Part shown: positions 19,726-23,357 of the stretch, in pieces
Position numbering within the stretch: the first letter of the stretch is position 1
How the letters are laid out: each line of letters starts with the position of its first letter
Assembly (NCBI GenBank): GCA_018666805.1
Contig: JABIXB010000111.1
Location: 1-35,141, forward strand
Direction of reading: 5' to 3'
DNA: 35,141 nucleotides
Source of the DNA: Rhodospirillaceae bacterium
GTDB lineage: Bacteria > Pseudomonadota > Alphaproteobacteria > UBA828
Notes under the pieces: generated by a model
What the model was told of the DNA's origin: nothing
Seen by the model: only the letters and a program-made list of their open reading frames with translations
Databases searched by the model: none
Made by a program: the position numbers and the translations under genes

Positions 19726-19771
19726 TTAACGGATTAGCAATATTTATTAGCGATGTTAACGACAGTTAACG
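19726..19771. repeat. Three helically phased TTAACG repeats
   Basis: TTAACG occurs at 19726-19731, 19756-19761 and 19766-19771, with start-to-start spacings of 30 and 10 bases, so all three face the same side of the helix. The last two form the direct repeat GTTAACGACA/GTTAACGGTT. They lie 23-68 bases upstream of the CDGSH start codon, in the gap divergent from the ThDP gene, as expected for tandem binding by an activator. Confidence 0.4.
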
Positions 19772-19793: not shown

Positions 19794-20033
19794 ATGGCCG
19801 ATCCCGTCGTTGCGCAGCCCTTTCCCTATTACGCTGAGGTTGAAGAAGGCAAAACCTATAAATGGTGCGCCTGCGGCCGCAGTTCGACGCAGCCCTTTTG
19901 TGACCTTTCCCATGCCGGCACCGGTATCGAGCCGATTGAGTATAAGGCGCCCAATTCCAAACGCATCGCATTTTGCGGCTGCAAGGCGAGCAAGCGCGGC
20001 GCCATCTGCGACAGCAGCCACAATCAGCTCTGA
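19794..20033 (+). CDS. Dual CDGSH-type iron-sulfur protein
   Basis: A protein of 79 residues with two CDGSH-like [2Fe-2S] motifs: CACGRSSTQPFCDLSH near 25-40 and CGCKASKRGAICDSSH near 61-76. Each has three Cys and one His as expected, although the central Gly of CDGSH is replaced (CDLSH, CDSSH). The second motif also lacks the usual Pro. Such small bacterial tandem proteins are soluble redox or cluster-transfer proteins. GGAG seven bases upstream supports the ATG. The stop lies nine bases before a ferredoxin-fused reductase, so the two should be co-expressed and may exchange electrons. Three phased TTAACG repeats lie in its promoter region. Confidence 0.88.
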   Translation: MADPVVAQPFPYYAEVEEGKTYKWCACGRSSTQPFCDLSHAGTGIEPIEYKAPNSKRIAFCGCKASKRGAICDSSHNQL

Positions 20034-20042
20034 TATTTATTG

Positions 20043-21032
20043 ATGGCGAACATTCACTATTATAATCGGACCTTTCCTTGCGCCGAAGGCCAGACGGTGT
20101 TGGATGTGTTGCTTGAAAACGAGCAGGAGGTTCCGCACTCGTGCAAGATGGGCGTTTGCGTGACCTGTATTATGCAGGCCGAGGAAGGCGATGTGCCGGA
20201 GGCGGCGCAGGCCGGATTGCGCCAATCGCTGGTGGCGGAGGGAAATTTTCTGCCCTGTGTGTGCCAACCAACGAGCGACATGCGGGTGGCCAACACCGAG
20301 ACAGAGGATCTGTTTAGCCCGGCCGTGGTGCGCGGGATCGACTATTTGTCTCAGGATATCTGCCGCGTATTTTTGGAACCGACAACACCGCTTTATTATC
20401 ATGCCGGCCAGTTCATGAATCTGCGCCGCGCGGACGGTCTGGTACGCAGTTTTTCCCTCGCCAGCGTGCCGAGCCTGAACAGCCGCCTGGAATTTCATAT
20501 TAAACGCCTCGACCAAGGCCAGATGAGCAATTGGATTCTGGATGAGCTCAAGATTGGCGACCGCATCGGCATCCAGGGGCCGATCGGAAATTGTTATTAC
20601 CACCCCGGCCGGCACGATCAGAATATGCTGTTGATCGGAAACGGCACCGGCCTTGCGCCGCTGATCGGCATTGCCCGGGATGCGCTTTCGGTCGGCCACA
20701 GCGGAACAATGCGGATTTATCACGGCAGCCGGACAAGCGACGGCATCTATCTCGGCAGTGAACTGCGTGCCCTCGATTCGGGCCATACCAATGTCGATTA
20801 CATTCCCTGCGTGTCGCGCGTCGCGGAATCCGAGGCTTACCGCCTCGGCAGAGCCGATCAAGTTGCGTTTTCCGACAATTCCGACCTCGCGGGCTGGCGC
20901 GTCTTTCTCTGCGGCAATCCCGAGATGGTCGATAAGGGACAAGAGCTGGCCCGGGCCGCCGGCGCCGGGATCAACGATATTTATACCGATCCCTATGTAT
21001 TGAAAAACCTACGCGAAAAGCCCCGTGCCTAG
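20043..21032 (+). CDS. Ferredoxin-fused flavin reductase (2Fe-2S, FAD, NAD(P)H)
   Basis: A protein of 329 residues. The N-terminal plant-type [2Fe-2S] ferredoxin has Cys34, Cys39, Cys42 and Cys72 or Cys74 (HSCKMGVCVTC, LPCVC). The FAD-binding domain has GLVRSFSLASVP (RxxS type), and the NAD(P)-binding domain has LLIGNGTGLAPLIGIARD and FLCGNPEMV. This is the arrangement of phenol or benzoate oxygenase reductases and of globin reductases. The start is ATG at 20043, or TTG three bases earlier; no clear ribosome binding site is seen. With a CDGSH protein upstream and a globin downstream, it may supply electrons to either. No oxygenase component is present, which disfavours a ring-hydroxylation role. 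Confidence 0.85.
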   Translation: MANIHYYNRTFPCAEGQTVLDVLLENEQEVPHSCKMGVCVTCIMQAEEGDVPEAAQAGLRQSLVAEGNFLPCVCQPTSDMRVANTETEDLFSPAVVRGIDYLSQDICRVFLEPTTPLYYHAGQFMNLRRADGLVRSFSLASVPSLNSRLEFHIKRLDQGQMSNWILDELKIGDRIGIQGPIGNCYYHPGRHDQNMLLIGNGTGLAPLIGIARDALSVGHSGTMRIYHGSRTSDGIYLGSELRALDSGHTNVDYIPCVSRVAESEAYRLGRADQVAFSDNSDLAGWRVFLCGNPEMVDKGQELARAAGAGINDIYTDPYVLKNLREKPRA

Positions 21033-21071
21033 CGTGGTCCGATAACAACAATAATAGGAGTGTAGCCCGGC

Positions 21072-21491
21072 ATGACTTTTCTCGATGAAGTCGGCGGTGT
21101 CCCCTGCCTCGAACGTGTTCATAAAATTCTCTACGACAAGCTAATTTCCGATCCGTGGTTGAAGCAGTTTTTTGAAGGCTTCAAACGCTGGCACCTGGAA
21201 GTTCAGCAAACCGAATTCATGGCCGATCTGTTCGGCCGCAAACCCGCCCTCTATCAGGGCCGCATGCCGATGTATGGCCATCAACACATGTTCATCGATG
21301 AAGAAATATTCATGATCCGCCACACTCTGCTCGGTGAAGCGATCAGCGAAGCAAGGGTCTCCGACGGTCTGAAAGAACGTTGGCTGGATTATGATATGGG
21401 AATGAAAAAGGCGCTGGTGAAAAGCTCGGTTGATGAATGCGAGGGACGCTTCAAGACCGAGGAAGTCATTGTCATCCCGAAGCCGCGCTAG
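21072..21491 (+). CDS. Truncated hemoglobin (group 1-like)
   Basis: A protein of 139 residues with the globin pattern VGGVPCLERVHKILYDKLIS, then SDPWLKQFFEG, QQTEFMADLFG, and YQGRMPMYGHQHMFI. By alignment to the HbN family His70 is the likely proximal haem ligand, with Gln45 or Gln46 near the distal E7 position and aromatic residues at 33-34. Truncated hemoglobins bind O2 and NO and often turn NO into nitrate when a reductase supplies electrons. The ferredoxin-fused reductase 39 bases upstream is a plausible partner. AGGAG eleven bases upstream supports the start. A hemerythrin gene with its own FNR-type site follows. Fold confidence is good; the NO role is inferred. Confidence 0.8.
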   Translation: MTFLDEVGGVPCLERVHKILYDKLISDPWLKQFFEGFKRWHLEVQQTEFMADLFGRKPALYQGRMPMYGHQHMFIDEEIFMIRHTLLGEAISEARVSDGLKERWLDYDMGMKKALVKSSVDECEGRFKTEEVIVIPKPR

Positions 21492-21515
21492 CGTTTTACC
21501 GAGCATAATGAGCGG

Positions 21516-21529
21516 CCGGCCTTAGCCGG
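21516..21529 (+). other. Short hairpin after the globin gene
   Basis: CCGGC-CTTA-GCCGG forms a 5-base-pair stem with a 4-base loop, 25 bases after the globin stop and directly before the FNR-type box. No T tract follows, so it is not a classical terminator. Confidence 0.35.
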
Positions 21530-21543
21530 TTGACCAGGATCAA
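21530..21543. promoter_or_regulatory. FNR/Dnr-type operator upstream of hemerythrin
   Basis: TTGACCAGGATCAA matches TTGAY-N4-ATCAA, with C instead of T in the first half. A TATGGT hexamer at 21566-21571 places the start near 21578, so the box is centred at -41.5, the standard class II position. The hemerythrin GTG is at 21604. The C variant is common in sites of Dnr/NnrR/FNR relatives. The particular regulator is not determinable. Confidence 0.7.
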
Positions 21544-21603
21544 GGCTGTCTCCCCGCCCTCTCGATATGGTTATCCGCCATATATGATGATGAGGATGCC
21601 GCA

Positions 21604-22050
21604 GTGAAACTTACCGATGCCCTGCTGGGCGAACACGGCGTTATTTACGAACTGTTCGCCTATGTGCGTGACACAGCCGCGAACAGCGATGATGTTCAAC
21701 AAATTCAGGGCGCCGTCGAAGTGCTCGAGCGGCTTCTTTTGTCCCATGCCAGAATTGAGGAGGAGCTACTGTTCCCGCGCCTCGATCCCCATCTCGGCGA
21801 AATGGGGCCGCTTGCCGTGATGCGCGAAGAGCATCGCCAGATTGAAGACCTTCTCACCGCCGCCAAACTCAGGAGCGATACCGGCGCCCTAAGATCGGTG
21901 ATCGGCCAACTCTTGGACCTGGCCCACGATCACTTCCAAAAAGAAGAAGGTGTGCTGTTCGCCATGGCCGGGCAATTTCTCGACGCGGCGGACTTGACGG
22001 AGCTCGGCAACGATTGGGCGGCGCGGCGCAAAGTTATGCTCACCGGCTAG
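21604..22050 (+). CDS. Hemerythrin HHE-domain protein
   Basis: A protein of 148 residues, a four-helix bundle with the di-iron ligand pattern: His11 (GEHGV), His48 with the Glu of SHARIEEELLFPRL, His77 with Glu81 (REEHRQIE), and AHDHFQKEEGVLF near 107-119. It starts at a GTG with AGGA about eight bases upstream. Bacterial HHE proteins bind oxygen, sense redox state, or, like RIC/YtfE, help repair iron-sulfur clusters after nitrosative stress. It lacks the N-terminal ScdA_N domain of RIC. Its promoter has an FNR-type box and its neighbours are a globin, a reductase and a CDGSH protein, pointing to an O2/NO response. Confidence 0.88.
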   Translation: MKLTDALLGEHGVIYELFAYVRDTAANSDDVQQIQGAVEVLERLLLSHARIEEELLFPRLDPHLGEMGPLAVMREEHRQIEDLLTAAKLRSDTGALRSVIGQLLDLAHDHFQKEEGVLFAMAGQFLDAADLTELGNDWAARRKVMLTG

Positions 22051-22070: not shown

Positions 22071-23357
22071 CTATGCCGGCGCCACACCGCTCGTGACGAC
22101 GAACTCGCCGGGGTCCTGGCCGTCGAGATAGGCCGCCAAATGCGCACTCAGGTCGCGCGCATCATCGCCGACACCATCCAGCAATGCCGATTTGCGCCGG
22201 CGTAAAAATTGGATACCCAAGAGATAAGCACCGGGCGCGTCCTCAAGGATACCGCCATCGTGGCGAATACGGCCCTTGCGGTCAAAGACCGGAAGTTCGA
22301 GCCAGGAATAATCCGGGCGGTAACCGGTCGCCCAAATGACCGTCTTGATCTCGCCGTTCTTGAGATTGAGTCCGAGCGGCGGCGATTTTTCAACCACCGT
22401 TGGCTCGAGGCGGCTCGGCGCATCGACCTCGCCATCGAGTCCGTTTTCGCTCGCCCATTCATCGATGGTGTCGAGAAGCCGGCCCATTTTAAGATCGGAC
22501 ATGGCGCATTGGTTACGCAGCGAACCGGAAAACTGTGCTTTGCCATCATTGATGCCGGCAAAGCGGCCAATCAATTTCACACCGATAGCGCCAAGCGCGT
22601 TGAGGTCGAGCGTCGTGCGCCCGGTCGTTCCGGTCAATTGCAGCGACGGCAGTTTACGCGCCCGCACAATATCCTCGACCTCGTCATAGCGCTCATCGAG
22701 CACCCCGGCGGCATCCATCCACCATTCCAAATCCCGCCCGCGATAGACCCGGGGTGCGCGGATATGCTCGCCGACGGAAATGGTGACGGGGTGACCGGCG
22801 CGCTGAATTTCATCGGCGAACTGGGTGCCGGTGGCCGAAGCGCCAACGACCATGACGCCGCCGGGCGCGAGCTGCTCCGGGTTGCGGTATTGCATCGAAT
22901 CAAGCGTGTCGATTTCCGCCGGCAGCGCCTCGCTCAGGGCCGGCACGCGGGCAATATTGCAGGCGCCGGAAGCGAGCACGACGGTACGGCAACGCCAGTC
23001 GCCCTGGTTGGTGGTGATCAGATAGCCGGCACCGTCGGTGCGCACTGCCGTCACAGTGGTATGCGCCTCAACCGGGGCCGAGATCACTTCGGCATAGCGG
23101 TCAAGAAAGGCAATCGTCTCGGGCATATTGCGGTAGCCATCGGGATCGTCGCCCTGATAGCCATAGCCCGGCAGCCGGCTCTGCCAATTTGGCGTGAGCA
23201 GGCGTAGCGAATCCCAGCGTTCGGTGCGCCATGAGTTGGCGACCTCACCGCGCTCGAGAACGACATGGTCGATCGCGCGCTCGCTGAGGCACCGGCTCAT
23301 GGCAAGCCCTGCTTGACCGCCGCCAATGACGACGGTCGTGGTGGTCCGCACTGTCAC
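22071..23357 (-). CDS. FAD-dependent flavin monooxygenase-like oxidoreductase (CzcO/FMO type)
   Basis: A protein of 428 residues with an N-terminal FAD motif VVIGGGQAGLAMSRCL, a second dinucleotide motif VMVVGASATGTQFADEI for NAD(P)H near residue 170, and the ATGYRPDYSWLELP block typical of this group. Members resemble flavin-containing and Baeyer-Villiger monooxygenases but many lack proven activity and are annotated as CzcO. The FMO fingerprint FxGxxxHxxxF/Y is not seen, so monooxygenation is uncertain. It is cytoplasmic, convergent with the hemerythrin gene (20 bases apart) and 31 bases downstream of the OsmC gene, with which it probably forms an operon. Confidence 0.85.
   Translation of the reverse strand: MTVRTTTTVVIGGGQAGLAMSRCLSERAIDHVVLERGEVANSWRTERWDSLRLLTPNWQSRLPGYGYQGDDPDGYRNMPETIAFLDRYAEVISAPVEAHTTVTAVRTDGAGYLITTNQGDWRCRTVVLASGACNIARVPALSEALPAEIDTLDSMQYRNPEQLAPGGVMVVGASATGTQFADEIQRAGHPVTISVGEHIRAPRVYRGRDLEWWMDAAGVLDERYDEVEDIVRARKLPSLQLTGTTGRTTLDLNALGAIGVKLIGRFAGINDGKAQFSGSLRNQCAMSDLKMGRLLDTIDEWASENGLDGEVDAPSRLEPTVVEKSPPLGLNLKNGEIKTVIWATGYRPDYSWLELPVFDRKGRIRHDGGILEDAPGAYLLGIQFLRRRKSALLDGVGDDARDLSAHLAAYLDGQDPGEFVVTSGVAPA

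Follow-up and report, generated by a model that had tools for sequence, protein, structure and literature searches.

Do the four redox genes that lie side by side in a contig of a Rhodospirillaceae bacterium belong together and, if so, what reaction might they serve? The stretch of DNA analysed (35,141 nucleotides, hereafter the window) carries genes for a CDGSH protein, an NAD(P)H reductase (FdR), a globin and a hemerythrin. An earlier note had read these as consecutive genes of one strand, and this was correct: all four open reading frames are intact, have the expected coordinates and lie on the + strand, separated in this order by 9, 39 and 112 bp. Both flanking genes, for a TPP enzyme upstream and an FAD oxidoreductase downstream, are on the opposite strand, so the co-oriented run consists of exactly these four. 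The downstream neighbour (22071-23357, − strand), which is convergent with the block, is related to the MSMEG_0569 family at 343 bits, below the 498-bit cut-off. Rfam returned no matches, and a scan for promoters and terminators found nothing exceeding chance.

Proteins encoded by the block

The first gene (19794-20033, + strand) encodes a tandem CDGSH (NEET) protein of 79 residues, similar to CISD3/Miner2. Pfam zf-CDGSH (PF09360) matched it at 55.6 bits in two stretches, corresponding to a tandem motif, and both 3Cys:1His ligand sets are present in the alignment (C25/C27/C36/H40 and C61/C63/C72/H76). Its closest structures were 3tbn (E 2.9e-27) and human CISD3, 6avj (E 1.7e-18). FdR (20043-21032, + strand; 329 residues) has a plant-type [2Fe-2S] domain at the N-terminus followed by FAD and NAD domains (Pfam Fer2, FAD_binding_6 and NAD_binding_1). 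All plant-type ferredoxin cysteines (C34, C39, C42, C72) are kept in the alignment, and the best solved structural relative is 5ogx. NCBIfam held no named family for the CDGSH protein or the globin, and reductase names were found only below threshold.

The globin (21072-21491, + strand; 139 residues) barely passes the Pfam Bac_globin (PF01152) cut-off, with 22.3 bits against 21, and we therefore class it as a divergent truncated globin. A predicted model (AF2) had a pLDDT of 86.6, with low confidence in the F-helix region. It gave 21 PDB matches at E<=0.001, led by HbN and other group I proteins; against HbN and other truncated haemoglobins Z was about 15, with an rmsd of 2.2-3.3 over 110-121 residues (VIA). 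As modelled, the globin keeps the 2-on-2 truncated fold and is group-I-like, the scores for group I and group II truncated haemoglobins being only about 1 Z apart. By alignment the pocket contains TyrB10 (Y21), PheCD1 (F34), GlnE11 (Q46) and HisF8 (H70). Within the subfamily TyrB10 and HisF8 are each present in 81 of 81 sequences and GlnE11 in 79 of 81, and Trp104 is invariant. The residues at E7, E10 and E15 differ from those of canonical globins linked to FdR, and a conserved C-terminal tail (ECxGRYKxExVIxxPKP, with a nearly invariant Cys) is lacking from canonical truncated globins. In the globin tree a very long branch separates the two groups. The protein is also distinct from flavohaemoglobins, since globin and FAD/NAD domains are on separate reading frames and the globin matches PF01152, not PF00042. 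In a plasmid collection the globin had a single weak match (33%, Haloprofundus).

The last gene (21604-22050, + strand) encodes an HHE hemerythrin-domain protein of 148 residues (PF01814 Hemerythrin, 76.6 bits). Upstream of the block, a perfect palindrome, TTAACnnnnGTTAA (19756-19769, + strand), stands 24 bp ahead of the CDGSH gene, a short distance from its start codon, and is the sole perfect copy in the window. It matches the motif given for Campylobacter NssR (PMC1274295) and, by this resemblance to an NssR/FNR-family motif, is a possible FNR-family site. The palindrome was not found at the other operons described below, and no shared motif upstream of these was visible by eye.

Conservation of the locus

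We used the divergent globin as bait for the conservation search, so that loci were selected independently of their neighbouring genes. In the same class, 385 genomes were searched, and nine of them, besides the window genome, had close globin orthologues (E below 1e-30). A wider scan of one genome per species (84,980 species) yielded 80 named globin loci with flanks. Four of these loci had CDGSH, FdR and globin genes in the same order and on the same strand as in the window, with short gaps. In a further genome the operon is split over two contigs: the break falls at FdR residue 293, and the CDGSH gene and the first 293 FdR residues were found at the end of another contig. The trio is thus found in five other genomes, and is not a neighbourhood of one genome only, which the earlier note had allowed for. 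The outer genes vary from locus to locus. CDGSH, FdR and globin genes therefore form a conserved operon, which is present in several marine bacteria; chance neighbourhood was rejected because the trio recurs across genomes and the linkage statistics given below are far beyond chance.

Three loci had FdR and globin without an adjacent CDGSH gene, and in the FdR-globin genomes that were checked (G405, G214, G306) a tandem CDGSH protein is encoded elsewhere. In a tree of 93 globins, in which the canonical group was represented by FdR-linked canonical globins only, the divergent globins linked to FdR formed one clade of nine (support 100/99). The divergent globin stands alone in most of the genomes that encode it. 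Pelagibius litoralis, a cultured relative, also encodes this globin but does not have the operon close to it. With CDGSH and FdR genes set aside, the recurrent neighbour of lone divergent globins is chiefly a PilZ gene, in Nitrospinota. This conserved PilZ-domain gene lies just upstream of the globin at eleven Nitrospinota loci; at one other locus (L093) a PilZ gene lies just downstream. The neighbourhood hints at a link between the divergent globin and cyclic-di-GMP.

The earlier note had placed the CDGSH protein in one unit with reductase and globin, and besides the recurrence of the trio this agrees with the wider distribution of CDGSH genes. Five loci without FdR, on scattered branches of the globin tree, have a tandem CDGSH gene no more than 1.5 kb from the divergent globin. 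With the operon clade counted once, six CDGSH-globin adjacencies were observed against about 0.04 expected by chance (P(>=6) ~5e-12, for 45 genomes with 0-3 tandem CDGSH genes each and random gene placement), though the six may be less than independent through shared ancestry. Tandem CDGSH genes were present in 35 of the 45 genomes with the divergent globin and in 135 of 398 genomes of a phylum sample, counts that are uncorrected for kinship.

Some individual loci deserve mention. One globin-adjacent CDGSH protein (L099, 5616-5849) lacks the ligands of the first cluster (QPYADGSG) and keeps the second cluster. Another locus (L147, 235-1737) encodes a single protein of 501 residues made up of a tandem CDGSH part and an FMN-type glutamate synthase domain; similar long frames occurred in several phylum matches, and such a fusion is also described in PMC5859297. 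The fusion fits electron exchange between CDGSH proteins and flavoenzymes. A record labelled Bifidobacterium breve (L079) groups with Myxococcota globins, and the label of this metagenome-assembled genome is apparently wrong.

The hemerythrin does not share in this conservation. No relative of it was detected by tblastn in the flanks of the 80 other globin loci, the other operons are followed by different genes, and its closest relative among 240 genomes (66%) lies amid unrelated genes. The four-part unit envisaged in the earlier note is accordingly reduced to three: CDGSH, FdR and globin recur jointly, and the hemerythrin joins them only in the window genome. A single functional unit of all four genes, in which the hemerythrin serves as an O2 store or repair factor, would fit its co-orientation with the globin at a distance of 112 bp, but in view of these distributions we consider such a unit very improbable. 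The hemerythrin is a neighbour and not part of the conserved unit, and the four-gene unit was rejected because its linkage was found nowhere else.

To follow the reductase, we examined 42 other FdR relatives from class and phylum searches. A canonical truncated globin, often two in tandem, lies directly upstream on the same strand in 37 of them, and none has a CDGSH gene within 1.5 kb. FdR is therefore a member of a globin-reductase family, while the CDGSH protein belongs with the divergent globin; a general partnership of CDGSH with FdR was rejected on the same count. The phylum search contributed many genomes, mostly of one family (f189), in which FdR follows a tandem pair of truncated globins. 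Three FdR relatives had no nearby globin, and one of these (L140) adjoins apparent molybdate-transport genes. The genome of the window itself contains a second, canonical pair of truncated globin and FdR (G000:C33:51826-52809), with the globin first and the genes almost touching. In the FdR tree the operon reductases are close to same-class reductases of canonical globin pairs, with weak support for the deep forks, which suggests that the operon FdR was recruited from such a pair. Dedicated reductases thus accompany truncated globins widely, and one divergent branch of these globins has an iron-sulfur partner as well.

The view that reductase and globin are separate genes of a two-component pair is upheld by these loci, and an NO-oxidising role for such a pair has prior art. 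For the Legionella pneumophila truncated globin-ferredoxin reductase operon (glbN-lpg2536), a predicted NsrR target, NO oxidation was proposed (PMC1274295), and a review generalises ferredoxin reductases as electron donors for truncated globins (PMC3820574). The operon of the window is therefore a known kind of pair, truncated globin plus reductase, with a new added part, the CDGSH protein. We found no description of a CDGSH-globin operon in the open literature searched, subscription journals being mostly outside its coverage; a phylogenetic survey of CDGSH domains does not mention globins (PMC5859297).

Possible functions of the operon

CDGSH, FdR and globin probably form one oxygen/nitric-oxide redox system. 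We favour, with somewhat better than even confidence, an NADH-driven two-component NO dioxygenase or a related O2/NO haem enzyme, whose redox or NO-sensing partner would be the CISD3-type protein. Its electron path, its substrate and the role of CDGSH we infer as follows. FdR would draw electrons from NAD(P)H via FAD and its own [2Fe-2S] domain and re-reduce the ferric haem of the divergent globin, a step proposed because of the family-wide pairing of FdR with globins. The globin would, most likely, convert NO and O2 to nitrate in its TyrB10/GlnE11 pocket, as the pocket residues and the prior art suggest. For the tandem CDGSH protein, genetic linkage points to a redox or sensing partner of the globin: it might act as a relay between FdR and haem, or in its reduced form it might bind NO and so throttle electron flow. 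CISD3 shows a single signal at -31 mV and binds NO only in the reduced state (PMC10937110), while mitoNEET is reduced by FMNH2 and NO blocks its redox transition (PMC9490426). If the potential of the CDGSH protein resembles that of CISD3, a relay would run downhill only with a haem above about -30 mV. A more specific version, in which CDGSH serves an undescribed truncated-globin subfamily as dedicated redox partner across several phyla, with the reductase joining in one clade and electrons passing from NADH through FAD, [2Fe-2S] and CDGSH to the haem under NO gating at the CDGSH cluster, is put forward only tentatively.

Several observations count against the NO dioxygenase reading. The operons showed no NO-related gene next to them, and the window genome gave no NirK match above cut-off. 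In most genomes the divergent globin has no partner gene beside it, and three FdR-globin operons lack an adjacent CDGSH gene. With the canonical pair at G000:C33 already present, the genome may not need another NO dioxygenase, and the operon may do something else. Moreover, a CDGSH relay is not strictly needed, since the reductase brings a [2Fe-2S] domain of its own and no CDGSH gene lies near canonical pairs. On the other hand, no PF00042 globin, and hence no flavohaemoglobin, was found in the window genome; together with the lack of NirK above cut-off, this makes the truncated globins a possible defence of this bacterium against NO.

Within the same redox unit, the globin could instead be a haem enzyme that uses O2 or acts as a peroxidase, or else a sensor of O2 or redox state, with CDGSH and FdR feeding it or reading it out. 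The very long branch, the added tail and the altered E7, E10 and E15 positions would all suit such a departure, as would the retention of a separate canonical pair in the same genome, and peroxidase activity has been reported for a Roseobacter truncated haemoglobin (PMC4319818). However, the HbN residues Tyr B10, Gln E11 and His F8 are conserved with almost no exception, and a pair of the FdR type is among the predicted NsrR targets (PMC1274295), so that we regard this alternative as rather unlikely. Less probable again is that the CDGSH protein, rather than carrying electrons, serves to deliver or repair [2Fe-2S] clusters after damage by NO or O2, for example in the FdR ferredoxin domain. NEET proteins have been proposed as cluster carriers (PMC9490426), and the CDGSH gene opens the operon, adjoining FdR; yet a CDGSH gene is near none of the 42 other FdR loci, and in five genomes it lies beside the divergent globin, which has no cluster, where FdR is absent.

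The favoured reading, a split NADH-driven haem enzyme, is of interest for the CDGSH family as a whole. The function of NEET/CDGSH proteins is unsettled even for the human members, whose clusters are redox-active and bind NO. The operon provides a CDGSH protein with a testable redox partner in a defined three-protein system, together with a haem globin and a probable flavin reductase. Such a system allows direct measurement of electron transfer to or from CDGSH and of how NO affects it.

Relation to known systems

Mycobacterium tuberculosis HbN shares the group-I truncated fold and TyrB10/GlnE11/HisF8 with the window globin, which is only about 22% identical over the structural match and has the C-terminal tail in addition. 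We know of no CDGSH partner of HbN. Flavohaemoglobin (Hmp) likewise pairs an NAD(P)H-FAD reductase with a globin, whereas the operon has separate genes, a truncated globin fold, an extra [2Fe-2S] domain and a CDGSH protein. The single-chain oxygenase reductases GcoB (5ogx), BenC and MmoC have the Fer2-FAD-NAD layout of FdR; FdR, however, is below all their curated cut-offs, and its partner is a globin and not a P450 or non-haem oxygenase. CISD3/Miner2 and the bacterial 3tbn also carry two CDGSH motifs in one short protein and align over nearly the full length, but the window protein is genetically tied to globin and reductase, and its first motif is CDLSH. Legionella pneumophila glbN-lpg2536 resembles the operon in its separate, adjacent genes for truncated globin and ferredoxin reductase, with proposed Hmp-like NO oxidation (PMC1274295, PMC3820574); in contrast, the operon of the window has a divergent globin with a C-terminal tail, places the reductase before the globin and is led by a tandem CDGSH gene.
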